From positions 2,923,390 to 2,987,389 of the forward strand of contig NC_061061.1 in the NCBI RefSeq assembly GCF_021917145.1: DNA of 64,000 bases, read 5' to 3'. Of the stretch, positions 21,885 through 64,000 are shown piece by piece; within the stretch, counting starts at the first letter, position 1; each line of letters starts with the position of its first letter. Made by a program: the position numbers and the translations under genes. The notes beneath the pieces were generated by a model. It did no database searches. It had not been told where the DNA came from and was given only the letters and a program-made list of their open reading frames with translations. This stretch comes from Hypomesus transpacificus. Lineage: Eukaryota; Chordata; Actinopteri; Osmeriformes; Osmeridae.

Positions 21885-22362
21885 CGCTAGTCATGATCCC
21901 GAATGACACAGGAAAGTTTCCGTTTCATATTTTGTGCGTCAAAACAATTTTTGACAAAAAAACGGCAGCTTTGGTACCTCGATAAGCACACACCTGACGG
22001 GTATTCAGCAGTTAACCGTTGCAAAGAAACAATGAGCCTCCTATTGAGTTGGCTGTGTTCTTAGAGCTCTCCAAGCTTATTTTCTCTTTAAATTGTTTTA
22101 ATGACACAATTGGAGGATTCTAAAAGTAAGTTGCACTACATCGTTTACATTTTCATATACACTGTTCTCAAACTGTTCGTTTGATTCTACAGAAGTCTTA
22201 TCTACTACTGTATGAATTCAATGCTTTGTTATAACAAATGTAATGTTTCCAAACCATAAAAAACAATGGTATGTCTTTTTAATATGTCAATTTTCTCAGC
22301 GTTATAACAATTATGGCAACATTACATGGTTGTCAAACTGCTTCATCAAGTTTGAAGGGGCA

Positions 22363-25598
<3,236 letters not shown>

Positions 25599-25659
25599 AG
25601 CTGTGAAGACTTCCAAGCAACCCCTGGTCAAAGATTACGCGAGGTAAACAGGAGGCGTG

Positions 25660-25674
25660 GCTTCTATTTATAAA
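25660..25674 (-). promoter_or_regulatory. TATA box of paraoxonase copy A
   Basis: On the minus strand the sequence reads AACTTTATAAATAGAAG, about 65-75 bases before the ATG at 25598. That spacing fits a short 5' UTR. Confidence 0.5.
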
Positions 25675-26085
25675 GTTCATGGTTGCTGAAACTGCAGTTG
25701 CAGAGTTGAGCCAAAGTAGACGCCGTTTCACCAAACACCACTGCTTTTAAAATGACTGTACTGAGAAGGTAACACGGCAAGGATTTATTAATTTATTATC
25801 TATTATCAGTTTCACATTGAGCAGAAATTTGTTTCACATTCAAGTTCCAGAAGCCTTCCAATAACCAATTAAAAAAAAAACTACGTTCAAAATTTTTGTT
25901 ATCAATGTGCATGAGGCACTTAGTGTACTGTGGGGTCAGACATTGTATCAGTACCAGGTATTTCCCCTAAGAAGGCTTTGAGAGAAGGGCAGTGTAATAA
26001 AAAGGAGGCATTTCAGTTGTTGTTCTAAACATAGTCCTGTTAGATGCATTTCTTCTCTGTTGAGTCTTCTGGCTACTTCTACGGG

Positions 26086-28436
<2,351 letters not shown>

Positions 28437-34561: not shown

Positions 34562-34702
34562 TCCCCACCGTGCCAAAGGAAGTTGTGTCCTTGGGCAAGG
34601 CACTTCATCCTACTTGCCTCGGGGGGAATGTCCCTGTACTTATTGTAAGTCGCTCTGGATAAGAGCGTCTGCTAAATGACCAAATGTAAATGTAAATGTA
34701 TT
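34562..34702 (+). mobile_element. 5'-truncated tRNA-headed SINE
   Basis: Body TTGTGTCCTTGGGCAAGGCA and tail GTAAGTCGCTCTGGATAAGA followed by GCGTCTGCTAAATGA, then a short TGTAAA repeat. The tRNA-like head is missing. It is the same family as at 26540 and 46685. Confidence 0.8.
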
Positions 34703-46156: not shown

Positions 46157-46929
46157 AGGTGCGTTCGACATGGACTGTGGCTGTATGAAACGACCGGCAA
46201 GAGTAGCCGCTTGCAGTCGGGGAGGAGTTGAAAACGGCTCTGTGAAGTCGGACATTCCAGCTTCTCATGGTTTGCTGCGTTGACGTCAGTCATGGCCGAT
46301 CAAGCGCTGTTTGCTTACTTTACTTCATTTATAATTAAACTTAGTCTTTCGGTTAGGCTAGTGAAAAGGCGGACTAAAACCCTTTCTTCAACACATTTTT
46401 TATTTAATTAAACAGTTTGGTCCGGATTTGAGAATTGGCGAAATTGAAGGTGTCAAAATAATGACAAAACTTGCGTCAGTCGTCGTGTGTGAGTCTGGCC
46501 AATCATGAATAGCTGTGTCGTCATTAGAACCCGTGCAATTGCTCTTGAGAAAATGCGCTCTGCTACACAGCCGGCAGTTCTCGAATCGATCTCACGGTAC
46601 TTTGATGGCTACGTCAAAGTGACCTAGCCTCGGCGCCGTCTCAAGTCGGACAAAAAGTCTAACCAGAATTCACAATCCACACAATTGTGTGGGGGTCAGG
46701 TGGCTGAGCGGTTAGGGAGTCGGGCTATTAATCAGAAGGTTGTTGGTTCGATTCCGGCTGTGCCAGATGACGTTGTGTCCTTGGGCAAGGCACTTCACCC
46801 TACTTGCCTCAGGGAGAATGTCCCTGTACTTACTGTAAGTCGCTCTGGATAAGAGCGTCTGCTAAATGATTAAATGTAAAAGTTTCAAGCTGCAGCGCTG
46901 CATGAAGTCAGTCCATGTCGAACGCACCT
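46157..46929. mobile_element. Non-autonomous DNA transposon with 21-bp terminal inverted repeats (family G1), carrying a SINE
   Basis: The left end reads AGGTGCGTTCGACATGGACT(G) and the right end is its exact reverse complement at 46909-46929. Both sides are flanked by ATT, a possible 3-bp target duplication. No transposase frame is present. A SINE occupies 46685-46880 near the right end. The internal sequence reappears, reversed, split between 47952-48386 and 63415-63660. Confidence 0.8.
46685..46882 (+). mobile_element. Full-length tRNA-headed SINE
   Basis: The tRNA-derived head has an A box (GTGGCTGAGCGGTTAGGGAG) and B box (GGTTCGATTCC). It is followed by CCTTGGGCAAGGCACTTCA and the conserved fish SINE tail TCGCTCTGGATAAGAGCGTC, ending in TAAATGTAAA. 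It is nested in transposon G1. Confidence 0.85.
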
Positions 46930-47951
46930 ATTGTGATTTAGTATTTAGGACAGTCCAGCCCCGATTGCGTGGCTCCACCACCCGATCTACTGCGCAGGCT
47001 CCAAATGATGTCACCAGCGCAAGGTGGCAGCACCCGTATCCAGGATATTTTGGCTTCATTTTTGTACAGTGGGCGGAAGCAGAGACGCATCATCCATTCT
47101 TTTACAGTCATTGGTTTGGTCAAAGCCATGATTCTGGGTTTAGTTAACAAAACAATATTTTTTGCATCTTCCCTGATATAGCTAATACAGTGTGCTTGTT
47201 TGGCAGATGTGACCCTACGCTGACGCATTTGACATTGAAGCTTAAACTAGGCTTTAAGACTGCCAAATGTGTCTCTTAACATGAACGCTACATTTCAGGT
47301 TTTGACATATATGGCTTTCCATAGTTGCTACGCACACCTCCTGAAGGAGAGATTGCCACCCCACTACGAACAAGAACCCTGGGACCGTATGAGAGAAATG
47401 TGGAGTTGTGGTGCAAAACTAGGGAGGCGGAGGCCAACTACCGTTCAACAATTTATGAAACAGGAAATGCGCAGGGAAAATTAAACAGTTTTTATCCAAC
47501 CTTATCACAGTATTTCCCGAACTAGCACTGTAGTTCTGGCGCCACACTCTACCCAAAGTACAAGGGTTGGGTGGCCCAGGTCTTACCTAGTGTTTATATA
47601 CAAAAGATTATCCTGCGGGTGGTGTAAGCCCCGGGGCCTCTTGCTTAAAGCACGTAGCTTTCCCCTTGAGAACAAAAGCAAAAAGGTATTAACCCAAATT
47701 ATAACAGTTCCAAGCTTTGAATTTCAACTACACAATTTCGCAAAGCAGCACACAGCATACAGACCAAACCAAATAGCAGCCGCCAAGCTCCTGAGCTGGA
47801 CAACCGCTCAGGCAACACGAGTAACGACTCTTTTAGAAAGTTAACAATTTCTTTATCGCTGTTGATGTCTTCATTATCGTCTGGATAGTAAAACTCAGCT
47901 GACTCCTCGATATCGCTCATTTTGAAGATGACGTCAGAGGAAGCCAATAAT
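46930..47951. other. Unassigned repeat-like sequence between two G1 elements
   Basis: The part 46938-47160 (AGCGCAAGGTGGCAGCACCC .. TTTTGTACAGTGGGCGG) looks like an interspersed repeat, but I could not place it in a family. Short open frames (for example minus 47918-47699, starting MSDIEESAEFYYPDDNED) are too isolated to call. Confidence 0.4.
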
Positions 47952-48386
47952 AGGTGCGTTCGACATGGACTGACTTCATGCAGCGCTGCAGCCGGCTGCA
48001 GGTGTAACGGGTGTGAACCTGTGGAACTCACTCCTCAGGTATGTAATGGGCTACCCGCGTCAACGAATAGCTAGCTTTTCTTTAGCGTAGCTGGTAGTGG
48101 TCGCGCTTGGCAAGTCAGAGGTTGTGCGTTCGAGCCCAGCGAGTGGCGAACGACGCCTTTTAGTGACGGAGCGTGGCCACGTCCGTAACATACCGTCACA
48201 CAGGCGGCTGACTTGAATCAGTGAATTCTGGTTATACTTTTTGTCCGACTTGAGACCGCGCCGAGGCTAGGTCACTGTGACGTAGCCATCAAAGTATCGT
48301 GAGATCGATTCGAGAACTGCCGGCTGTGTAGCAGAGCACATTTTCTCAAGAGCAATTGCACGGGTTCTAATGACGACACAGCTATT
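47952..48386. mobile_element. Left half of a second, inverted G1 transposon, cut by a hAT-like insertion
   Basis: It begins with the same terminus AGGTGCGTTCGACATGGACT in inverted relation to the right end of the first copy. From about 48225 it is the reverse complement of 46500-46665. It stops at CAGCTATT (48379-48386), where a hAT-like element begins. Its continuation CAGCTATTCATGATTGGCC is found at 63415. A tRNA-like stretch (A box near 48084, GTTCGAGCCC near 48130) is inserted near its end. Confidence 0.75.
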
Positions 48387-51292
48387 CATGGGCGTCAGCA
48401 GCATTTTGAGAGGGGGGGGGACACATTTTGCCAGGGGGGTCTGGGGGTTTCTCCTCCAGAATTAAAAAAAAAAGATGTAGATGCAATTTCTATGGAGCTA
48501 GAAAGCTGACAAAAGTATCTGAATTTGAATATGAAAGATCTGAAATATTTGTGTGTCGAATTTCATAAAACTGAAATATTTTGTTGTTGAATATATCATA
48601 TCTGAATTATTTGTATGCCAAATTTCATAAAACTGAATTATTTTGATCCAAAAAAACAAACATATTTGTGTGTCGAATTTCATAAAACTGAAATATTTTG
48701 CTGTTGAATATATCACATCTGAATTATTTGTATGCCAAATTTCATAAAACTGAATTATTTTGATCCCAAAAAAACACATTTCTAAAATTCAGATTGCTGG
48801 AATTCAGATTCTTGAAATTCAGATTGCTGAAATTCAGATTGCGGAAATTCAAATTCAGACTGCGGAAATTCAGATTTTGCCTGAACTAGGCCAAAGGTGA
48901 AACAGCTTGCTTTCACAGGAAAAAGTAGACGATTTCAGAACGACCGAACTTTACCTCAGAACAAACTGAGTTGCTAGTTGGAGGAAGACCCAGATCACAC
49001 ATACGTATCTGGGTTAGCACACATACGTCTTGCCGACGTTGGCCCCATGTGTAGAAGATACGTCGGCAAGATGTGGTATGGAGATCGTTGGCATTTGATC
49101 GAAACTGACTCCAGACGATGTGTGGACGATGAATCAAATCACACCCGGCCGCACTACAGATATATTCTGATAGATAACTCCTTATATGCTGTTAAATACT
49201 AGGCAATGTCCGATCTCTCAGAAAGCAAATATTTCACTATCCATAACCGGAATGAAATGTCTCTTAGCAAATGAAGATAGCCTATAGGCTGAACATTGAC
49301 TTTGATAGGAATAAGGAGACAATGAAAAATATGCTTGACCATCCAAAATTGGTTATTAGCAATACAGTAGCTAGCTAGCGTGACTTGATTCAACCTGGGT
49401 TTTCTGTGTGGGTATTATAATTAAGAGACACAATTAAAGTTCATGATTTTATATCAAGCTGGATGTTGATGCCATCAAGCTCTTAAAAGAACTCCAACAC
49501 AGAAAAGAGAACAACGGAACATAAATATATAGGCTATAGCTTTGCCAGTTGATCCGCGTCTTCCATCGGTCTCCGTCGCCCTCCGACTCTGTCTCGACTC
49601 ACTTGGTAACTGCCGATTTTGGCAAAGGAGAAGACACAAGCTTTTACAAGTTTCATAAGCACTTGCTCCATACTCCTCCTCCAACGAGCAACTTAGCTTT
49701 TGTTCGGAGGTAAAATTTGGTCGTTCTGAAATCGTCTACTTTTCCCTGGAAAGCAAGCTGTTTCACCTTTGGCCTAGTTCAGACAAAATCTGAAATTCCG
49801 CAATCTGAATTTCAGCAATCTGAATTTCAAGAATCTGAATTTCAAGAATCTGAATTCCTGCAATCTGAATTTTGGCAATTTGTATTTTTGGATCAAAATA
49901 ATTCAGTTTTATTAAAATCGGCATACAAATAATTCAGATATGATATAGCCTATTCAACAGCAAAATATTTCAGTTTTATGAAATTCGACACACAAATATT
50001 TTAGATCTTTCATATTCAAATTCAGATACTTTTGTCAGCTTTCTAGCTCCATTAATTTCCCGCATTCTGGTGCATTTACCACAACTATTTACCATAGTTG
50101 TTATACATATACTTAGGGGCTGGACATAAATATATTTTGAAAATTAAACTTCCCAATAAGCAATGGGACATCTTCAACTACCTGTCACCTTTCAGCACTC
50201 ACCTCAGCAACAGAGCTGTCTCCACTGCCCCTGCATGCTGCCTCTGACTCACTCAATCTCAACCACCTATAGGCTATATCAGGAGACATGGAGATGCATT
50301 GAGCATTCTTTCATATTTATAATTGAAATAAGCTTAATGTAGATTGTTCATATGAAGATTTCTTAGATGTAAATCATGTTCAGCATATCAAATTCACAAT
50401 AGGTATAGGTTTAGAAGGCTAATAATTATGTAGGCTACATAAAAAATTAGCATCTCCCTAAGCCATGACTGGCCAGTTCAGAAATGGTCAAATGTGTGTT
50501 CGAACCTGTAGTCTTTTCCTTCACAGACTAACTTGTAGCAATGACATTGTGCAAATTGCCACAATTACAAGTTGAGCAACCCTGCTTAATTTGGAAGACA
50601 ATTCTGAAATAAAGGTTTTTTTCTTCTTTTCAGTCGTTAGAAAAACTAGCATGTTAGTAAGGTTTACTCCAGATTAGCTCACAGTTGTTTTGGCAATAAA
50701 AAAAACACACCAGCAATTTCTTTTGTAGCTACTTGGAAGAAACATCCTTGTCATCTCTTTCTGCTGAAACAGTCTAGCAGAGGTCTGAACACGGCCAAAA
50801 CCACAACATATTTTAGACCCAATTTAAGAAATAAACAACTGCTGTTCCACTTCTAATGGGTAAATAAAGTATGGTATTGCCTAGCGGTAGATGTAGGTAA
50901 AGAGCTTGCTTATCTAGCTAGCAAACATAATGTTTGCAGAAGGATCTTTGTGACTGAATTAATGCTATTATAGTCAGAGAATGTCTCATAAGGGTGCTTT
51001 GGCCACTGGAGGGAAAACTTGGGAAACTGACTTACTTTCCTCTTCCTCGAAAAAAACCTCCTTATGTCCATCTCGTCTGTGGGACAGTCATTTCTGAAGT
51101 GCTAGCTGCAAGCGCCATGCGTCGATCAAAGAGTATGGGAGTTGAATCTGCGTGCGTGATGCTGTTTGTCTAGAAAACACGGATTGGAATTCTATTGCTA
51201 TGGGTATTCTCCCTACTGATAAAGTGGAACGGATTTGATTGTGAAGCAATGGAAAGATCGCTGGACTACTAGACAAGTCAGTCAAGTCAAAC
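48387..51292 (+). mobile_element. hAT-like non-autonomous element H1, copy 1 (3'-truncated, contains a foldback insertion)
   Basis: It starts CATGGGCGTCAGCAGC, like copy 2 at 60840, after the target sequence CAGCTATT. The sequence 50054-51292 aligns along its length with copy 2. Homology stops at GACAAGTCA near 51290, so about 100 terminal bases present in copy 2 are missing. A 1.56-kb foldback element sits inside at 48491-50053. No transposase is coded. Relative to copy 2 it lacks about 250 bases near 50520. Confidence 0.75.
48491..50053. mobile_element. Foldback element with long inverted repeat arms
   Basis: The left arm starts TATGGAGCTAGAAAGCTGAC and runs to about 48990. The right arm, about 49670-50053, is its reverse complement and ends in TAGCTCCATT. 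The insertion is flanked by AATTTC (48485-48490 and 50054-50059). The uninterrupted site GCAATTTCCCGC occurs in the other H1 copy at about 60948. The arms contain a tandem ATTTGTGTGTCGAATTTCAT unit of about 115 bases and short TTCAGATTGC(T/G)GAAA repeats. No protein is coded. Confidence 0.8.
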
Positions 51293-52240
51293 TAATAAAA
51301 ACTAAAATGACAGCTTGACACAAAGACTAGACTAAAACTACAATTAAAACAGGCTGACAAAAAACAACACTAGATGTAGTTATACTAATACGAATAAGGA
51401 TGAAAACAACCCGTCCCCCGTTGTCTCCAACTTGTAACAGAAACTATAACAGTAACAATATACTGCAACGGAAACTATGGCAGTAACAATATACAGTAAT
51501 AGGTTTACTTTATTTGTTACATCAAGATGTAACATCTAGATGGGGCAATGTGAACATATACGCTATAATTTCAATTTAAAAGTTACATGTGATACACACA
51601 TAGGCAAACACACACAGAATGTAAATACACACATGCTTACCTTTAACAATTCAAGAAATGACTAAACAAGAATGTTTTTAACCTCATTTTAAATGTCGAA
51701 ACAGTATCAGCCTCCTTAATTGAGACAGGTAATTTGTTCCAGAGAGGAGGTGCTCTACATAGTATGTTGGACTCCAACAGACTTACGAATGACTTTGAAA
51801 ACATTCCAAATGGTAAAAAGGCACACCCTGTTTCCAAAGTGTTAAGCCATTGAGAAGCACTCATATATACACAGTTGTATTCTGACTGGGCCTTACCTAG
51901 GAAAAGACCTGCTGGCCATGTTTCAGTTCCAATGTGAACTCCTCCTCACCAAATGATGTCCGGCTGCATCAATATTTGACCCCTCAATCATGTTGGTTGA
52001 GATATGGCATCTTGGACACTATCAAACTATTATTATTGGTCCAATAGCTCTCTCTGTGCCACCTAGAACAGAGGCTTTACACCAACACCGTAAGTTGGTT
52101 GGGGCCCAAATCAAACATCAGTTTCACTGTACTGGTTTATCATTATCATTCAGTGGGATGAAATTGAAATACATTTGTAGAGCAGATGTTTCAACCTGTT
52201 GATACAGTTAAAAATGTAATAATCTTGGTACTTAACGTTG
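51293..52240. other. Spacer with LINE fragment
   Basis: Apart from the LINE fragment listed at 51640-51865, no exon or RNA gene was recognised. Confidence 0.45.
51640..51865 (-). mobile_element. LINE ORF2 C-terminal fragment
   Basis: The minus strand translates to RAPPLWNKLPVSIKEADT and STFKMRLKTFLFSHF. These match the (A)P.LWN.LP.SI and FK..LKTFLF motifs at the ends of L2/CR1-type reverse transcriptases. It is a short remnant with no upstream part. Confidence 0.65.
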
Positions 52241-52248
52241 TTTTTTCC

Positions 52249-53065
52249 CCTATATAAACCCTTTATCTGCTTCAGACAGTGGCTCAGACAGTTGACTCAA
52301 ACAGTAATCGAGCAGTGCTTTGACTCGTGCAGTTGAAGGAGAGGTGCAGTGTTTGCTGGAGATCAAAAACGGTTAGTTCCATGTACCGTCAACACAGTGA
52401 TTAACCATTGTCAACTCACAGAATATAAATGATTTGAGGGAGATTAACGGGGGCAAAACCGTGTTTTCAGATCATGGACAGTGTGTGCTTGTGCAGACAG
52501 TGTCCCCGCTATGGGCCCAGTATAGAGGGGACACAGGTGTGTTCCATCAGCAATCAAGGATGTTCCACCTACCTGCCACCTTGCAACTGCAATAAAAATC
52601 CAGGAGGACTCCAGTCAGGGAAGACAAGGAGAGTGAAAGAGGTGGCTTTGACAGAATAGTATATGTATATTTTATATACATTCTACAAGCTACACAAAGT
52701 AAGTATCCGTGGGGTTGATGTTCCTTGTAATGTTTCGAATCATGGAGTTCACCTGCTTGAACAATTCCTCTTTCTCTGGTATCCTGGCTCAGTCTGTGTA
52801 AAGGGTTTGAATGAAGAGAAATGTTGCGGTTGAGGTCTTATCTCGCCTGCCTTGGCCAGTCAATAGTGTTTGATTGCACCTAATATTCTGCAGACAGGAG
52901 GGTTAAACCTGTGGCAAAATATATAGAAAAACCATAGCAGTAAGTGTCTGTAACTTGCATCCATTTTAGAAAGGAACTTGAATGTGGATATGTAGGCTAC
53001 TATATTCATTTTAATTCTGAATTTGTTTTTTATTGCACTAAATTCAATGATGCCCTATGAATAAA
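52249..53065 (+). CDS. Possible small Cys-rich protein gene (61 residues)
   Basis: A TATA-like CTATATAAACCC at 52249-52260 is followed by a possible non-coding exon ending AAAAACG|GTTAGT near 52371. A TTTTCAG acceptor at 52470 precedes exon 2, which carries an ATG at 52474 and a stop at 52657-52659. AATAAA lies at 53060-53065. The product starts MDSVCLCRQCPRYGP and has seven cysteines in 61 residues (C5, C7, C10, C23, C30, C37, C39) and a basic end. There is no signal peptide and no family I recognise. The ordering TATA-exon-intron-ATG-polyA supports a transcript, but the frame could still be chance. It might also be an upstream exon set of the FCGBP-like gene. Confidence 0.35.
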
Positions 53066-53241
53066 GGAATGCAAGTCTCAATTAGGGGAAATTCCATGCA
53101 AGGGTGTTAATTATCAACATGGATCATCACTGTTGTAGTAGAATGCATCCTACTGTAAATGTGCTCCATAATCTTTGGTGTCTCTAGAAGGGCTTTTCCA
53201 TCTTGTCAACATTCAGGTGTAAAGGCAGATTTTGACACTCC

Positions 53242-53765
53242 CTAAAGGCCGATTTATACTTCTGCGTTTTTACGCACACGGGAAACGCCCTCTCTGTGCC
53301 CTCTCCGAGCCCCTCTCCGAGCTTTGCGTGCACCTCCTGATTTTCCTGACTGTCCGTCCGTCATTTTACGGATACCCCTTGGCTGTGATTGGTCCGTATT
53401 AAGAACCGCTTGCGTCAGGGGTGGGGGCGGGGTTGCCGTGACCAACAAGAGAACAGAATCCTTTGACCGCCATTGTTGTAGGTTTTTACAACTCTTATTT
53501 CAGCTAAACAGTACATGTAAATCAGCATCTGAATTAAAATGTGACGAGAGATGGGCAGTGTAGTTGCTGAAAATGTGCTTATTTTATTGATGAAACGGCT
53601 CATTTGTAAATTTGCTCTGACCTTTCGATAACCTAGCTAGCATTGCAGTGCAGCGCCATCTACTGTTCTGGCGGTGAATTGCTTTCAGCACGCAGAGCCG
53701 TCAGAAGTATAAATTCAACCTGTCTGTCCGTTAACGGAGACGCAGAAGTATAAATCGGCCTTTAG
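53242..53765. mobile_element. MITE with perfect 25-bp terminal inverted repeats
   Basis: The left end CTAAAGGCCGATTTATACTT (CTGCG) at 53242-53266 is the exact reverse complement of 53741-53765. The element is 524 bases with no coding sequence. It ends 215 bases upstream of the FCGBP-like ATG. Confidence 0.85.
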
Positions 53766-53980
53766 TTGTTTGGGAGCGTCTGTTTACTGTGCTAAACACC
53801 CGCTCAGTGACTAAGTGGCTCTTATTGGCTGTTAACTTGAACATGACACTATTTAAGCAGTAAATGTGTTCCGTTACCTTACGCTCCCCTCCAGGGATGC
53901 TTGTTTCAGTGACTTGTCAAAGTTGTGTAATTATGAACCTTGTGGGTATCCTGAGTAAAATAAATACTGTGTTTGCAGCC

Positions 53981-56900
53981 ATGGGGACCCAGTTATTGCT
54001 GAGTTTTGTTTCTCTACTAGTCTCTGGTAAGTGTTCATTTTTCAATTTTTCTGGTTTGAAACTGAATTGGGTTTGAAACTGGGTTATGGCACTGAAACTG
54101 CAGTAAAACAAGTTAATCAGCATTTGAGTGACACGGCAGGAAGGCAGGGAATTTGCAATGTCCTTCATGGAGAACTACAAGCCCAGCTACGCTGGCGCTC
54201 GTTTCTAGCGACAGATATATGCCCTGCAGGCCGACACCAGCGTGACCGTGAAGGTGTCCAGTTTGAACTTTGTGAAACAGCAGAAGCTGGGGGCCGAAGA
54301 GGCGGTCACCGTTACCCTCCCTGACGGGGTGGAGATGGGCGGAACTGAGATGTCCTCCAAGACGGTCCAGATTTGAGTCCTCCGCAGACGTAATGGTGGC
54401 TGCCTTCAACTACAAGCTCTACACTGCCGACACCAGTGTGATCTATCCCGTGAGCGAATGGGGCACAGACTACTACATTTTCACCCCGTCCGCCACGCCC
54501 TTGGGCACCTTCAAGGAGTTCTCCATAAGCAGTCCTCCTGCCCTACCAGAGCATCCAGATCCAGTCGACCTCTGAGCTGACGGGCACCAGAGTGTCCTCC
54601 CAGCTCCCTGTGGCCGTCATCATCCAGGCCACCCTCGTCACTGTGCGAAAGGGGAGCAAGGTCGACGTCGTCGTCTCACTGGGCCAGGGGAAGGCTAAGG
54701 AGTTTGGCAGCCAGACGCCATGACCATCCAGGTCGACCATGGCGTTCAGGTGCTGCTGCTCTTCAACAGGGTCACGCTGAACAATGGCCATATACGACCC
54801 CTTCCTGATCGCGTTGCCCTCCCAGCACTTCTGCTCCTCCTACTTCCTGGAAGGCCAGGAGAGCTTTGAGAACAAAGCCTTGCTGGTGGTGCAGACCAAT
54901 GAGCTTGCCACTGCGCTTTGACGGCAAACCCCCTGCCCAACACTGTCCAGTGGACGAGTATCTCAGCCAGCGAGTTCTCCTGGGCAGAGATTGCCTACCC
55001 TCAGGGGTACCCCGACAACAGACACACGATGACCCTTGGCTCTCCGTTTGCCCTCTACAGCATGGGGGTCAGTTACATGAATGGCTATGGTTCTCCTGCC
55101 CTCTGCCGCCAGGCAGGTAAATGACGCAAAGATTGCTGCATCAGAAGTGTTTCTATAGAGGAGGGAGCAAGTCTATCACAGTAGACTTGTTGATGGATAC
55201 CTTTTTAAAGACCGTGTGTCTTCAACCAATGTACTGAACTAGTTAACGGGTGTGGCTACAAAGGGTATAATCTGTTTTATTTTATTTCAGGTGGTTTGTC
55301 TTTCCCCAAGTCCTGCAGCGATCTGACCTGCAAGGCAGACGAGGTGTGCGAGACGAGGCAGGAGATGCCCACCTGCAGCAAGAAACCAGCCGAGGCCAGC
55401 ACCTGTTGGGCCATGGGGGATCCCCACTACCGCACCTTTGACGGCCGATTCTATGACTTCATGGGCACGTGCACGTACGTCTTTGCCAAGAGATGTGCGG
55501 TGGAAGACGTGCTGCCAGACTTCGAGGTCCTGTCCCAGAATGAGAACAGGGGCAGTCTCAGGGTGTCGTATGTGGGCGTGGTTACGGTGAAGGTTTACGG
55601 CCTCACCATCACAGTGATGCGGACTGAGACTGGCCGTGTCAGGGTAAGATGCTCCTTGGTGATCCACGCTGAGGCTGTGCCATTTACCGTTTCTATTTAA
55701 ACAAAGCCTAAAGATTATTATTATTATTATATATTTTAAGTCTCCCAACCCTGATTTGTAATACGATGAACATGGTGCTAATTGCATTAATGCTGAGCTC
55801 TTTTGTCTACAATTCTGTGATCAGATTGACTATGTTCTGTGGAATCTGCCCGTGGTTCTGAACGAGGGAAAGGTGGTCCTGTCCCAGATGGGTCGCTTTG
55901 CGGTCATTCAGACCGACTTTGGCCTGACCGTGAAGTATGACTGGGAACATCATCTTGTGGTTTCCCTGCCCGCCAGCTACGCTGGCAAGACCTGCGGCCT
56001 GTGCGGCAACTTCAACGGGAACCCCAACGACGACTACTCCACGCCATTGGGCACGCAGGCGCGTGGGGTGCCGGCGTTCGGGAGCAGCTGGAAGGTTGCA
56101 GGCCTGGTGAAGGACGCGCTGTGCACAGACGAGTGCGTGGGAGGCTGCGATCGCTGTGAGAGCAACCAGATGAAGCTAATTGAGGGCGAGCTGTACTGCA
56201 GTCTGATCGGCCTAGTGGCCAAAGGCCCATTTAGCAGCTGCAATTCTGTCGTCCCCCCACAAGCCTACCTGGACAACTGCAAGTTTGACTTGTGTATGGG
56301 AGGAGGCCTCAGGACCTTCCTATGTCGGGCTCTCGAGACCTACACCGAGGCCTGCCAGAAGGCTGGCGTCCAGGTCCAGGACTGGAGAGCCCTCGCACGT
56401 TGTCGTGAGTAACCTTTCATTCATGAAACCGGGAGTTGTTCATCGACTGTTGCCTGTACTGACTGCCTTGTCTCATCCTGTCCCTATAGCTTCCCAGTGC
56501 CCAGCCAACAGCCACTATGAACTGTGTGGGAGCCCCTGTCCTGCCACCTGTGCCGACCCCACTGCCCCAATGAAATGCAAAGGTCCATGTGTGGAGGCTT
56601 GCACCTGTAACAGGGGCTTTGTCCTGAGCGGAGGGCAGTGTGTGCCCACTGCCAAATGTGGTTGCACCTACCTGGGTCGCAATGTTCCTCCCGGGGAGTC
56701 CTTCTGGGATGACCAGGCCTGCAAGAGACGCTGCCGCTGTGTGCCAGAGAGCGGGCGCGTGGAGTGCCAGGACGTGGGTTGTCGGGCGGGACAGCAGTGC
56801 CAGGTGGTGGATGGCATTCGAGACTGCTTCCCCGTCTCCTACAGCACCTGCCAAGCCAGAGGCGATCCCCACTACCAGTCCTTTGACCAGCAGCGGTTCA

Positions 56901-59900
56901 ACTTCCAGGGCACGTGTGTGTACCAGCTGGCTGGGCTCTGCTCCAGGCGCCCTGGTCTGGTGTCTTTCCAAGTGTTGGTGCAGAACGACTTCCGGGGTAG
57001 CAGGGTGGTGTCTTACACCAAGGTGGTAGAGGTCAAGGTCTACTCTCAGACCATTTCCATCAGCAAGGACTACAAGGGCCTAGTCATGGTAAGCAAAATT
57101 GGCTTTTAGTCATTGCGTACAGGAATCTAAATGGAGCAATGTACTGGATCACTGCCAGGAAACGATTGAAGAAAAACGGCCCATTCCTGTCTGATCCATT
57201 TATCCCCAGGTAAATGGAGAGTTGCTGAACCTGCCAGTGTCCCTGAGTGAAGGCCAGGTAACGGTCTACAAGAGCGGCTGGTACGCTGTGGTCACCACGG
57301 ACTTTGGCCTCAAGGTCTCCTTCGACTGGAACAGCAACGCCTTCGTCACCCTCCCCAGCACCTACCAGGGCGCCGTCTGTGGCTTGTGCGGCAACTACAA
57401 CGGCAAGTCCCAGGACGACCTCGTGCCCACCAACGGAAAAGCTCCGGTGAGCGCTCTGGAGTTTGGCAGCAGCTGGCGGGTGGAGGAGATCCCTGGCTGC
57501 GTCCACGGCTGTAAGGGCACCTGTCCCGAGTGTGACGTGACCCAGAAGAGGGAGTACGAGACGGGCGACTTCTGTGGGCTCCTGAGGGACCCCAAGGGCC
57601 CGTTCAGGGACTGCCACGGCCAGGTGGATCCGGCGGGCCACTTTGAAGATTGCGTTTATGACGTGTGTCTGTACAAGGGCAGGAAGGACGTGCTGTGCCA
57701 GGCCCTCACTGCCTACACCTCAGCCTGCCAGGCCGCGGGAGCCAAGGTCTACACCTGGAGGTCGAACCAGCTCTGTGGTGAGAGCTGTTCATTGAAACAC
57801 ATTTTTTATTAACCTTCCTCTTTATCCAAATTCTATACATACTCCACAGAGGAGATCTCATTGATTGCTCCCGTCTCCCAGATGTGCGTTGCTCGGCCAA
57901 CAGCCACTACGACGTGTGTGCGTCCAGCTGCCCTGCCACCTGCAGCGGCCTGTCGTCACCGCAGGGTTGCCGGGCCCAGTGCAAGGAGGGCTGCTCCTGC
58001 GACGAAGGCCACATCCTCAGCGGGGACGGCTGTGTGCCTTTCTCCCAGTGTGGCTGTCTCCAAGGCGGTCGCTACTACCAGGTGGGACAGGTGTTCTACC
58101 CTAATGGGAAGTGTGACGAGGAGTGCAGCTGCACACAGGATGGACAGGTACGGTATACAAAGACCGGCTCTTGAACAATCAATAACGAATCTCGACGCAT
58201 CTCCAACAGGAAAACCAACCGCTTTCAGTGATTTATAGCAAATATTATCCCCAGGTGATGTGTAAGAAGTTCTCCTGTGGTCCGAATGAGAAGTGTGAGG
58301 TGGTGGACGGAGTCCAGAAATGCAATCCAGTGGGTAAGGCTGTGTGCCAAGCCTCTGGCGACCCACACTACTTGTCCTTCGATGGCCTGGCTTTCGACTT
58401 CCAGGGCACCTGCACCTATACCCTAGCCAAGGGCTGCGGGCTGGATGGCACCCGGCTGGTGCCTTTTGCTGTGCAGGTGGAAAACGAGTCTTGGAACAAC
58501 CGCAAGGTTTCTGTCACCAAACTGGTTGCGCTGGAGGTCTACGGCTTCACCCTCATCTTCAGAAACAACATGTTTGGTGTCCTGGTGAGGCTATGCGCAT
58601 CACTAACTAGTCGAATTATGATAAAGGAATCCTTCAGGATTAAAGTGAATTGAAACCTGATTCAATTGAAGTATGATATGGGCAAATCATTGTCAAATGT
58701 TTCCTCAGGTGGATGGCGTGTTCAACAACCTGCCCCTGAGTCTGAACAATGGGGCCGTGCAGGTGTACAAGCAGGGCTTCCACTATACCATCTCCACAGA
58801 CTTTGGCCTGCTTGTGACCTATGACCTCGTCTACCACGTCACAGTCACCGTGCCTGGCAACTACCGCGACAAGACTTGCGGCCTCTGTGGCAACTTTAAC
58901 GGAAACCGCGCTGACGACTTCACCATGTCCGACAATCGTGTGACAAAGAATGTCAATGCGTTCGGGGCTTCCTGGAAGGTGGCCATAAAGGGTGTGTTGT
59001 GCGACAACGGCTGCTCTGGAAACGCGTGTCCGGTTTGTGACCCCCCGAAGAAGGCCGTGTTTGAAAAGCCCAGCCACTGTGGGGTCATAACGGCTCCCAA
59101 GGGCCCCTTTGCAGCCTGCCACAGTAAACTGGACCCCGTGTCTTACTTCAACGACTGCGTGTATGATTTATGCGTCTCCGAGGGCGACGAGAAGGTGTTG
59201 TGTGACAGTGTGGCGGCCTACGCCTTCAACTGTCACATGGCAGGAGTGGACATCGACTGGAGGACTCCCTCCTTCTGTCGTGAGTGACGGTCCTGTTATG
59301 CCTTCTAGCTGGGGAAACGACAAACGTGATTGACGGCATGGTGTCAGCTTCGTACGCTTCAGCAATGCAAAATCATTTATGATTCTTCTGTTCCTCTTGC
59401 AGCCATGAAGTGTCCAGTTAACAGTCATTATGAGGTGTGTGCTGATGCCTGCTCTTCAGCCTGTCCTAGTCTGACTGACGCAGTGAAGTGCTCCAAGTGT
59501 TCTGAGGGCTGCGAGTGTGACGCTGGCTTCCTCTTCAACGGCCAGACCTGCGTCCAGCAGAAGCAGTGTGGCTGCTATGACCATGGACGGACATACCTGG
59601 TAGAGATGGGGTTATTCTGGGGTGTCGTACGGTTACAGTAATATGGGTGTTACAGTTGTAAAAGTGAGAAGTTTGTGTGGATGCAGCATAACAATGACCT
59701 TAATGGGTGTCCTTAATGTAACAAACTTCCTGTATGTGACCAGGCTGGTGAGGTGGTGTACTTGGCAGAGTGCAGTCAGAAGTGCTCCTGTGACCCTCTG
59801 AAGGGGCTTGTCTGTGTGGCTCACTCCTGCCCCACCAACACAAAGTGTCTGATCAAGAAAGACGTCAAGTCCTGCTACAACACAGGCAAGGCTCTTTTAA

Positions 59901-60244
59901 TCTTGCGCACGCGCACTTTCAAGAATTCTGGTGGTAATTACATTTCCCATCTTGAGGCTTTTCACAAATCGGAACTTGGCACCATATTTTTAATTGTAAA
60001 CGGAGAGGCACCATATTTTTAATTGTAAACGGAGAGGCTGTGGAACACCAACCGTCTTGACCCTCTATAGATCCCTGTAAGGATGCTGGTTGACTACCAA
60101 AGGGATGAGACTGATGTATCGTTCTCCTCTTTCTTTCCAGTGGCCTGTAAAAGATGTGGCTCCAACAGCATGGACTGTCCACTTCCAATGCCAGGAGGAT
60201 GTAGATGGTGGTGCTTAAGTCACTGCATTGTAGATGCCATTTAG
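53981..60244 (+). CDS. fcgbp: IgGFc-binding protein-like (FCGBP), VWD-domain mucus protein with damaged N-terminal region
   Basis: Large secreted Cys-rich protein of mucus. First exon 53981-54026 encodes signal peptide MGTQLLLSFVSLLVSG. The region 54130-55117 corresponds to the IgGFc-binding domain but is interrupted by stops and frame changes (separate entry). Intact exons follow: 55291-55643, 55825-56404, 56490-57088, 57210-57777, 57882-58147, 58255-58584, 58709-59279, 59403-59599, 59744-59885, 60141-60244. All phases match and they end at TAG 60242-60244. They encode three VWD units, with AMGDPHYRTFDGR, ARGDPHYQSFDQQ and ASGDPHYLSFDGL, and CGLCGN(F/Y)N in each. Each is followed by C8 and TIL modules (for example CPANSHYELCGSPCPATC, CSANSHYDVCASSCPATC, CPVNSHYEVCADACSSAC). 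The chain ends with a short Cys-rich tail. One intron (59886-60140) uses a GC donor. AATAAA is at 60384-60389. Human FCGBP has many more VWD repeats; fish FCGBP-like genes are numerous, so orthology is not claimed. Confidence 0.85.
54130..55117 (+). pseudogene. Broken IgGFc-binding domain region of the FCGBP-like gene
   Basis: Family-like peptides appear in shifting frames. FAMSFMENYKPSYAGARF meets a TAG at about 54210, followed in the same frame by RQIYALQADTSVTVKVSSLN up to a TGA at about 54376. Then VAAFNYKLYTADTSVIYPVS and GTDYYIFTPSATPLGTFKEF lie in another frame. SELTGTRVSSQLPVAV is in a third, and YDPFLIALPSQHFCSSYFLE and ISASEFSWAEIAYPQGYPDN come after further shifts. At least two stops and about four frame changes are needed over 1 kb. 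Either this domain has decayed while the VWD part is still maintained, or the assembly has errors here. Confidence 0.7.
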
Positions 60245-60383
60245 GAATGTTGTGTGCGAGAATGAATCATGCTTAATTCTGCTCAATGTTTCCATTTCTG
60301 TAATATCTACAAGTTCATGACTAACACTTTGTAATTGATACTGTTTTACTGACTATACTTAAACTGACTTGGTGTCTGCAAAA

Positions 60384-60389
60384 AATAAA
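60384..60389 (+). terminator. Polyadenylation signal AATAAA of the FCGBP-like gene
   Basis: AATAAA 140 bases after the stop codon, preceded by an A-rich stretch. Confidence 0.6.
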
Positions 60390-62263
60390 CATTCCTTGTA
60401 TCAATAGCACCATATTGTGGTCCAGGTTGAATATTCCATCTTGGTTAAATGTTCAGTTTCACAGTAGGAACATTCCCCACACTTGAGCTTACGAGTTTAT
60501 TTTGGAAATGCACCACCAATTGACCCATGGGCATCTAAACATGCGGCTCTGTGTTCTATGCATTACTTCCAACCTGGTTGCATAAACGGATATCTAACGC
60601 CTGTCGTGCTGTATGGCTGATTGCGATTCTTAGTGGTTCCCGTCAACTTCACGACGGTAAACCATGTTTATACAGTCAGTTTTCCCACATGGTTTATAAA
60701 TAAAATTGAACATTGACTGCATTCAAGTTTGTTCCGTGTTGGTTTTCCCTGAAAGCTGCTCACTTGAAGTCTTGTTTTCATGGCCCAGTCAGTTTAATAA
60801 TAAACTGAACGTTAGGCCTACTCTTCCCATTCATAGGCGCATGGGCGTCAGCAGCATTTTGAGAGTGGGGGGGACACATTTTGCCAGGGGGGTCTGGGGG
60901 TTTCTCCTCCAGAATAGAAAAAAAAAAAAAAAAAAATAGATGTACATGCAATTTCCCGCATTCTGGTGCATTTACCACAACTATTTACCATAGTTGTTAT
61001 ACATATACTGAGGGGCTGGACATAAATATATTTTGAAAATTAAACTTCCCAATAAGCAATGGGACATCTTCAACTACCTGTCACCTTTCAGCACTCACCT
61101 CAGCAACAGAGCTGTGTCCACTGCCCCTGCATGCTGCCTCTGACTCACTCAATCTCAACCACCTATAGGCTATATCAGGAGACATGGAGATGCATTGAGC
61201 ATTCTTTCATATTTATAATTGAAATAAGCTTAATGTAGATTGTTCATATGAAGATATCTTAGATGTAAATCATGTTCAGCATATCAAATTCACAATAGGT
61301 ATAGGTTTAGAAGCCTAATAATTATGTAGGCTACATAAAAAATTAGCATCTCCCTAAAGCATGACTGGACAGTTCAGAAATGGTCAAATGTGTGTTCGGA
61401 CCTGTAGTCTTTTCCGCACATCACACCCTTAGGATGTAAGCTTTCAGAAAATAAATGATTTTAGGTGGTTGAATCAGTTTCCCCAAATGGCACAGCCCAA
61501 AAAAGTATCAGCCATATACTCCCATTACCAATACTGAATTGATTATGCATCACCAGCATACTAATATGGAGAGAAGGATGTGTCTTGTCTCATTGGATAA
61601 CATCCTGAGGGTATAAGCTTTCAGAGAATATATGGTTTTAATGGTTGAATCAGTTTTGCCTTCATGTTACACAGACTAACTTGTAGCAATGACATTGTGC
61701 AAATTGCCACAATTACAAGTTGTGCAACCCTGCTTAATTTGGAAGACAATTCTGAAATAAAGTTTTTTTTCTTCTTTTCAGTCGTTAGAAAAACTAGCGT
61801 GTCAGTAAGGTTTACTCCAGATTAGCTCACGGTTGTTATGGCAATAAAAAAAACACACCAGCAATTTCTTTTGTAGCTACTTGGAAGAAACATCCTTGTC
61901 ATCTCTTTCTGCTGAAACAGTCTAGCAGAGGTCTGAACACGGCCAAAACCACAACATATTTCAGACCCAATTTAAGAAATCAACAACTGCTGTTCCACTT
62001 CTAATGGGTAAATAAAGTATGGTATTGCCTAGTGGTAGACGTAGGTAAAGAGCTTGCTTATCTAGCTAGCAAACATAATGTTTGCAGAAGGATCTTTGTG
62101 ATTGAATTAATGCTATTATAGTCAGAGAATGTCTCATAAGGGTGCTTTGGCCACTGGAGGGAAAACTTGGGAAACTGACATACTTTCCTCTTCCTCGAAA
62201 AAACCCTCCTTATGTCCATCTCGTCTGTGGGACAGTCATGTCTGAAGTGCTAGCTGCAAGCGC

Positions 62264-63138
62264 TAGTGATGTGTCGTTCGTGAACGATTCGTTCATTTTG
62301 AACGAATCCTTATAAGGACTCGGGAGTAACGAGTCCTCTCAACGAGTGATTCGTTCATTTCCCGACTCGGTCTTTCTACGAGTCTTTGGATCATTTTTCA
62401 CGTGACCTGCATAGGCTCTGTAGCTAGAGGAAACGAACGATTCGTTCCTTTCCCGACTCGGTCTTTCTACGAGTCTTTGGATCATTTTTCACGTGACCTG
62501 TATAGGCTGTAGCAAGAGGAAACGAACGATTCGTTCCTTTCCCGACTCGGTCTTTCTACGAGTCTTTGGATCATTTTTCACGTGACCTGCATAGGCTCTG
62601 TAGCTAGAGGAAACGAATGATTAGTTCCTTCCCCGACTCGGTCTTTCTACGAGTCTTTGGATCCTTTTTTCACGTGACCCGCATTGTATTTTTTAGTAGA
62701 GGAAACAGTTTCCTTATTCCCTTTTGCGTGGCCGCTGTTTTAGTAAGACGTGAATGAATGATATTCGCTCAAGTCATCATACTGACTGGTTTTGTTATTT
62801 TCACTTTACATTTACACTTACAGTTTAGTGCAGTGTAATTGTTTGACGTGATAATTAAATGCTAGTGTGATAATACATGACCAAATCATACAAACTCATG
62901 ATACATTATTTTAATGCAGGAATTTATTTTGAAATAGTATTTGCTGGTGCACATGTCATGCACTAACCTACAGTGGACGTATAGGGGCTATACGTCCTTT
63001 GCAGTGGACGTATAGCCCCCTAGCCCCCCCCCCCCCCCCCCCTGAAATGAACAAATGACTCAAAAAAAGATTCGTTCATTTTACTGAACGAGATTCAAAG
63101 AACCGAATCAGTAAAAAGAACCGAACTTCCCATCACTA
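62264..63138. mobile_element. hAT-type MITE with 8-bp target duplication GCAAGCGC
   Basis: The termini TAGTGATGTG.. and ..CCCATCACTA are inverted. The 8-bp flanks GCAAGCGC at 62256-62263 and 63139-63146 are identical. The empty site CTGCAAGCGCCATGCG is preserved in H1 copy 1 at about 51106-51121. Eight-base duplications are the mark of hAT transposition. The 875-base interior holds four copies of an about 90-base tandem unit and a C run (63013-63033). There is no open frame of note. Confidence 0.88.
62361..62695. repeat. Four tandem units of about 90 bp inside the hAT MITE
   Basis: Units starting CCCGACTCGGTCTTTCTACG occur at 62361, 62452, 62541 and 62633 (spacing 89-92). Each ends with GAACGATTCGTTC-type palindromes, which also recur near both ends of the element. 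Confidence 0.88.
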
Positions 63139-63414
63139 GCAAGCGCCATGCGTCGATCAAAGACTATGGGAGTTGAATCTGCGTGCGTGATGCTGTTTGT
63201 CTAGAAAACACGGAGTGGAGTTCTATTGCTATGGGTATTCTCCCTACTGACAAAGTGGAACGGATTTGATTGTGAAGCAATGGAAAGATCGCTGGAATAG
63301 TAGACAAGTCATGGACTAATATTTTGATCGGAAATGTGGGAGGGTCCAAACGACTTTTCTTTTTTAAGGGAAGGGGGACGTGACCCCCTAAGTTACGTTG
63401 CGGCGACGCCCATG

Positions 63415-63660
63415 CAGCTATTCATGATTGGCCAGACTCACACATGACAACTTTGAAGCATGTTTTGTCATTATTTTGACACCTTCAATTTCGCCAATGC
63501 TCAAATCTGGACCAAACTGTTTAATTAAATAAAAATGTGTTGAAGAAGGGTTTTAGTCCGCCTCTTCACTAACGGAAAGACTACGTTTAATTATAAATAA
63601 AGTAAAGTAAGCAAACAGCGCTTGATCGGCCATGACTGACGTCAACGCAGAAAACCAGAG
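63415..63660. mobile_element. Right half of the interrupted, inverted G1 transposon
   Basis: Starting with CAGCTATTCATGATTGGCCA, this is the reverse complement of about 46280-46525 in the intact G1 copy. It directly continues the half that ends at 48386. Its own terminus is replaced after about 63660. Confidence 0.75.
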
Positions 63661-63675
63661 AAGCAGGACGACTAA

Positions 63676-64000
63676 CAGTGCGTTCACACTGCAGCGACGC
63701 GATGCGAGCGACAACAGCGAGATTTTCTCAACTTTATGCAAATAAGGAGCGATTTTCGCTAGCGATGGCCAATCGGAGTGTTTTCTTGTTTCTCCTAACG
63801 TAGCAACCATGGCAAACATTTCTAGCTTTCTAGGTTTCAAGGTGAAGGAGAAACTAATCGTTTGTGTGGCTGCTTACCCAGTCCTGTACGATATATAGCT
63901 GTATTTGTACAGAGATGTTCATTTAAAAAAAACAATGCATGGCGCAAGGTTGCCGAAGTTGTTGGTGCTTGTACTTTCTAATTCAGTCTAGTGACATTAC
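63676..64000. other. Unassigned repeat-like sequence at the window edge
   Basis: GTGCGTTCACACTGCAGCGA and CGCGATGCGAGCGAC resemble the ends of small fish DNA transposons. The element runs out of the window, so its other end cannot be seen. Confidence 0.35.

Follow-up and report, generated by a model that had tools for sequence, protein, structure and literature searches.

A host gene copy between two sister hAT-type elements in Hypomesus transpacificus, possibly built by repair copying

The locus described here raises the question of how a segment of host DNA carrying a copy of an FCGBP-like gene came to lie inside a split transposon, between two directly repeated copies of a second transposon. 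The window, by which we mean the whole stretch of 64,000 nucleotides that was analysed, corresponds to C2:2923390-2987389 in the genome of Hypomesus transpacificus (C2 being the contig), and all coordinates follow its numbering, with values greater than 64000 continuing along the same contig. Genome-wide searches covered 437 Mb in 376 contigs. The interrupted transposon is called G1, and the element present in two copies (c1 and c2) is called H1. The original prediction held that the gene block had entered a resident H1 by homologous recombination, for example of a circular DNA carrying H1 and the gene, or that a tandem duplication had been followed by a deletion. We favour a different account, in which repair of a cut or broken H1 in G1 recopied H1, switched to a nearby FCGBP-like locus and joined the end of c2, and we consider this account about equally likely to be right or wrong. 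The features on which the argument draws are listed here.

47952-48386, plus strand: left part of G1 (G1L), interrupted by a small additional insert; AATAAT at 47946-47951 flanks its outer end
48379-48386, plus strand: left 8-bp target duplication, CAGCTATT
48387-51280, plus strand: H1 copy 1 (c1), left terminus intact, lacking its last 103 bp and an internal stretch of ~250 bp, with a 1.56-kb insert
48490-50053, no strand assigned: insert in c1, bounded by AATTT (5 bp) on each side; its arms are inverted repeats
51281-60839, plus strand: captured block, comprising 81 bp, a repeat resembling a long interspersed nuclear element (LINE), the FCGBP-like gene copy and the gene's 3' flank
53981-60244, plus strand: FCGBP-like gene copy, limits set by eye from reading frames; possible signal peptide and three VWD-C8-TIL units
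60832-60839, plus strand: CATAGGCG at the left edge of c2; its counterpart at the downstream paralogue is CATACCCG, without H1
60840-63414, plus strand: H1 copy 2 (c2), complete with both termini, ~98% identical to c1 in the common core
62264-63138, no strand assigned: later insert in c2, with 8-bp duplication GCAAGCGC
63415-63422, plus strand: right 8-bp target duplication, CAGCTATT
63415-64000 in the window, plus strand: right part of G1 (G1R), with an insert from 63676; true end at 64422, followed by AATAAT

The first step is to establish what was interrupted. A single G1 (47952-48386 and 63415-64422) is split by a 15,028-bp insert at 48387-63414. An uninterrupted G1 copy at 46157 crosses the site once as ACACAGCTATTCATGATTGG, while G1L ends with ACACAGCTATT and G1R begins with CAGCTATTCATGATTGG; against this intact copy, G1L matches at 165 of 170 and 44 of 44 positions and G1R at 240 of 262, the latter count including 10 gap columns. 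The octamer CAGCTATT occurs in the window solely at the two edges of the insert, and the one instance of its reverse complement, at 46508, falls within the uninterrupted copy. AATAAT adjoins both outer ends of G1. Because the outer flanks of the other G1 copy agree over 3 bp (ATT) only, chance may account for some of this 6-bp agreement, but we regard the shared flank as still supporting one G1. The intact-copy alignment and the outer AATAAT thus bear out the earlier claim that the two G1 halves are adjacent parts of one element, and the break does lie at CAGCTATT, as had been proposed. The right half was correctly started at 63415 and was ended too early at 63660, given that G1 continues after a 659-bp insert with TAA on either side. 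Likewise supported is the view that the outer ends look like those of a single hAT-type element inserted into one G1, with 8 bp duplicated. An origin of the halves from different G1 copies is unlikely in light of the AATAAT common to both outer ends, and the idea that G1 with H1 inside is a multicopy unit was rejected because the G1L-H1 junction (21 bases, at most two mismatches) was found once in the whole genome, at the present locus. Rfam at the gathering threshold gave two matches in the window, both UnaL2; these LINE tails lie at 34632-34685 and 46822-46875, the second being part of a repeat inside the intact G1 copy.

The next step concerns the relationship between c1 and c2. Judged by its sequence, H1 is a hAT-type family, and its ends are 10-bp inverted repeats (CATGGGCGTC and GACGCCCATG). 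Six other H1 loci (L002 and L004-L008) were scanned for their ends, and in the two where both were located the flanks agree at eight of eight positions (L007, GGTGTTTG) and at seven of eight (L006). A genome-wide search with the H1 core (1,227 bp of c1) gave 404 candidates, 40 of which were scored. Among these, c2 is 98% identical to c1 and the next match longer than 100 bp is 92%, with short pieces at 93% over 70 bp and 97% over 34 bp. Direct comparison over three core segments gave c1-c2 identities of 98.3, 97.6 and 96.5%. The comparison set of 21 other H1 copies (the six loci and 15 more, with L051 giving no core match) showed at most 93% for matches longer than 200 bp, up to 97% for shorter stretches and up to 95% in the third segment, which lies close to the right end. 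Fifteen of the 21 copies were offered for a tree, nine of them covered 400 bp or more of the first core segment, and c1 and c2 were grouped at 100/100 among the resulting 11 rows, which had no outgroup and only a midpoint root. The identity of ~98% between c1 and c2, set against at most 92% for the others in the genome-wide search, argues that both descend from one element, and the same comparison led us to reject independent H1 insertions. This sisterhood is read from the core, given that all copies are alike over the outermost ~100 bp.

Two details of the pair agree with the original prediction, namely that c1 is truncated at its inner end and that c2 has a different left flank, CATAGGCG. 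Parts of a 254-bp stretch present in c2 and absent from c1 were matched in five of six other H1 copies, which points to a deletion in c1. Tandem ~90-bp units (85-95% alike) occupy 62341-62706, within the later insert of c2. Dimer_Tnp_hAT (hAT dimerisation) domains are common in the genome (766 candidates, 150 scored, all listed ones above the cut-off), but none was tied to H1, and a transposase was identified in neither c1 nor c2. Viral contigs queried with the left end of H1 gave no matches. In the account proposed below, the H1 in G1 is taken to be a non-autonomous hAT-type element. Like such elements, H1 has short inverted ends, 8-bp target duplications and many copies (the 404 core candidates). 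Unlike them, it is found here as two copies with a host-gene copy between them, although the other H1 copies were not systematically searched for this arrangement.

If the two H1 copies are sisters, where did the DNA between them come from? The first 81 bp of the captured block have no listed match elsewhere, and a repeat judged by eye to be LINE-like follows from 51362 on. For the gene, BLAST against the neighbourhood revealed a second copy at 88909-105857, about 28 kb from the block and 96.6% identical over 5,417 aligned columns. This downstream copy lies in cis and is inverted, so that the 3' ends of both copies face each other, and it is the longer of the two. When 1,459 bp of the gene were compared with the whole genome, with every one of the 8 candidates scored, the block, the downstream copy (98%) and seven short matches of 67-83% came up. 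With 6.9 kb of the block as query (11 of 12 candidates scored), the matches listed were two 3' pieces of the downstream copy (at 85 and 86%) plus short ones of 64-89%. The 5.4-kb stretch escaped this search, which is thus alone no proof of copy number. The match between the downstream copy and the left part of the block breaks off at a repeat (105868-106276) that is also present at 66210-66601.

The 3' flanks of the two gene copies are homologous up to CATTCATA, after which the block reads GGCG and then H1, whereas the downstream copy reads CCCGTCTGATTAAG with no H1. The octamers CATAGGCG and CATACCCG correspond at six of eight positions. At 60832-60847, CATAGGCG and the H1 start CATGGGCG form a near-tandem 8-mer (7/8), either by coincidence or as the trace of a slipped join, and given this likeness CATAGGCG may be a mere copy of the H1 terminus. 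Neither an H1 nor duplicated 8 bp was found at the matching site of the downstream copy, where CATTCATACCCGTCTG is uninterrupted, as it might also be after a perfect loss. No H1 besides c1 and c2 was found in 164 kb around the locus. The earlier expectation was a source locus flanked by an H1 that has CATAGGCG on either side, but the single source-like locus that was found lacks H1 at the corresponding site. A 625-bp query across and beyond the paralogue site matched only itself genome-wide (1 of 1 candidate), so apparently nothing beyond the H1 terminus was copied.

The captured gene is FCGBP-like, with VWD, C8 and TIL domains and an IgGFc_binding match of 16.6 bits, under the Pfam cut-off of 25.6. 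What needs correcting is its description simply as a gene. The block copy is shortened by ~6 kb of internal exons relative to the downstream copy, frameshifting indels sit just after its IgGFc-binding start, and the exon at 54.6-55.1 kb carries indels of +3, -7, +1, -3, -2 and +1 compared with a frame that is open downstream. On the strength of these indels, which were read from the assembly sequence alone, the block gene is probably non-functional.

Any explanation has to accommodate four observations: the clean insert with its duplication, the sisterhood of the c1 and c2 cores, the nearby inverted source-like copy without H1, and the truncation of c1. In the repair account, the starting point would be one H1 in G1, flanked by the CAGCTATT duplication. 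On one chromatid, a hAT transposase would have cut this H1 at its left end, or the DNA would have broken at that point. With the H1 of the sister chromatid as template, the G1L side would then have been extended up to 51280, producing c1. From there, the growing end would have moved on to the FCGBP-like gene, ~28 kb distant, and taken in ~9.6 kb of it in inverted orientation, down to the 3' flank. Finally, this end would have been linked precisely to the left terminus of the cut H1, giving c2, whose right end would never have left G1R. What we infer here is the cleavage itself, the sequence in which the events took place, the switch between templates and the closing end join. Such a repair fits the change from one H1 to two, the precise fit of the gene segment's end to an H1 terminus, and the inverted source in cis without H1; one step with a template switch also needs no lost third copy. 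At the 51280 junction, CAAGTCA..ACTAATA is common to both templates, with a score reached by 0.006 of 5,000 random window pairs for a stretch picked post hoc. We prefer gap repair, with moderate conviction, because the source carries neither H1 nor a footprint.

Several results weigh against this account. Microhomology at the c2-side junction is no better than chance (0.21 versus random windows), and CATAGGCG beside a precise H1 terminus is also what one would expect had an H1 simply inserted into the 3' flank. For most cases, PMC8277862 prefers breaks within elements to excision; at this locus the two ends concerned are located at H1 termini or close to them. Moreover, a single event should leave a single age, and the divergence is uneven. 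The H1 pair differs at 28/1225 sites (2.3%), and fourfold sites of the block and downstream genes (16/583, 2.7%) are consistent with this value (p=0.62). However, introns (45/1050, 4.3%, p=0.008) and 5' non-coding sequence (66/1657, 4.0%, p=0.011) are more diverged than the H1 pair, and the strongest objection comes from the last ~750 bp (60/678, 8.8%, p=3e-10), at nearly fourfold the H1 value. These counts were cleaned of columns near gaps, the H1 left end and two 5' pieces (53925-54057 and 54534-54632), with exon limits for the classes placed by eye; uncleaned and with its left end, the H1 pair gives 31/1320, and the piece at 53925-54057 gives 7/133. The 3' discrepancy may reflect a later exchange at one gene copy, a divergent source allele, or a gene duplicate that predates the H1 event.

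The rival that survives best, although we consider it unlikely, is alternative transposition yielding a composite insertion. In this scheme an H1 would have resided at the 3' flank of the FCGBP-like gene, a left end contributed by one sister copy and a right end by the other would have inserted jointly into G1, copying of the trailing flanks would have aborted, and the arms would have been end-joined at 51280/51281, as with maize Ac/Ds. Outer hAT ends with a single 8-bp duplication, two sister H1 copies, source flank on the left end of c2, one non-homologous inner junction and a source in cis all agree with it. PMC4270019 describes maize composite insertions that share this anatomy, the sequenced cases measuring 14.3, 19.3, 23.2 and 23.6 kb, three of them end-joined with inner microhomology of 0, 3 and 4 bp. 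Our locus resembles the composites and macrotransposons of maize (PMC4270019 and PMC9910405) in its outer hAT ends, its one 8-bp duplication, its two element copies, its segmental duplication and its non-homologous inner junction. It differs in that no H1 was seen at the source, that it is an old natural allele rather than an observed event, and that one copy is truncated at the inner junction. Excision of the ends would lead us to expect a source without H1, and the 6/8 likeness of CATAGGCG and CATACCCG suits a real target site. On the other hand, the 8 bp stand at the source site in a single copy without any footprint, and the age mismatch applies equally.

Macrotransposition is a less probable alternative still, and we would be surprised to see it confirmed. 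It supposes that an older gene duplicate lay between two direct sister H1 copies and that the 15-kb unit was cut and pasted into G1, with c1 truncated before or afterwards. This would permit a gene duplication (8.8% at the 3' end) older than the H1 pair (2.3%), and such an older duplicate, if real, would favour this route; a third gene copy is unnecessary, and maize examples of 10.3 and 28 kb are reported in PMC9910405. Nevertheless, the vacated site should keep the 3' flank beyond H1, and the genome-wide flank search gave only the self-match. The inverted neighbour 28 kb away must be put down to coincidence or local hopping, and more steps are required.

The explanations of the original prediction have become very improbable, even though its broader view, that the gene block arrived at H1 or along with it, is supported. 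A circle bearing H1 and the gene and recombining with the H1 resident in G1 would account for both c2 flanks, and for the truncated c1 if the circle closed inside H1. However, c1 and c2 are not independent, differing by 2.3% where ~8% or more would be expected of independent copies. Each is the other's closest relative among the copies scored, which makes a circle with an independent H1 unlikely. The source-like copy is inverted and without H1, and there is no further close gene copy. A circle carrying a freshly duplicated sister H1 may be envisaged instead. Tandem duplication followed by deletion predicts that the second gene copy is oriented like the first and ends in H1, contrary to what is seen. 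Homologous recombination between H1 copies in G1 and at the source was set aside for requiring a source H1, of which the surrounding 164 kb held none, and simple unequal crossing-over was rejected because the second gene copy is inverted. The gene copy and the H1 pair are near repeats, yet an assembly artefact (a chimeric join or false duplication) is the least credible reading of all given a window without N in a 17.2-Mb contig, copies 2-10% diverged with private inserts in c1 and c2, and an exact target duplication at the outer edges.

How would a repair product of this kind be classified? PMC8277862 reports Pack-TIRs, named for terminal inverted repeats (TIRs), from 100 animal genomes, 208 of 370 being hAT; among 281 unique cases, 56.9% lie within 15 kb of their source and 67.6% have microhomology at one or both breakpoints. 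As in the gap-filled Pack-TIRs described there, host sequence from another locus, here in cis, was copied into a TIR element and is present in single copy. hAT is the commonest host superfamily there, and microhomology is possible at one breakpoint here. Filler other than transposable-element sequence lies between parts of a TIR element within an outer target duplication, the right part being a whole second element, and an identifiable source lies in cis, ~28 kb downstream. Unlike Pack-TIRs, however, our locus has a complete second element copy after the filler, which touches the exact terminus of that copy. The filler is also 9.6 kb long with introns, and its source lies outside the 15 kb that holds the majority of those 281 cases. 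With a confidence that is evenly balanced, we would call a repair-type event here an unusual Pack-TIR of the gap-filling kind. Among the matches listed by the literature searches, which left most subscription papers outside, neither this locus nor any Pack-TIR having a complete second copy of its element was described.

Other parts of the window hold few further features. ARAGORN found nothing in it. Minus-strand gene-like stretches at 22216-27700 are alike, with 150 bp at 22363-22512 and 26086-26235 being 94% identical, and their reading frames recall what we take to be paraoxonase.

The value of the locus is that it is well preserved and separates recombination, transposition and repair as routes by which DNA transposons may duplicate genes in a vertebrate. 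This separation is possible because of the target duplications, the unique sister transposon pair and the nearby source. The gene copy looks broken, and we claim no new function for it. Even so, a repair event could build a gene-bearing unit that is movable by transposase. We regard the full chain as possible but rather doubtful, namely that one-ended cleavage of a vertebrate hAT element led, through template-switching repair, to a second full element and a 9.6-kb inverted gene copy, and so in one step to a 15-kb unit with both outer ends. If true, such a unit would be a potential macrotransposon carrying a host gene.

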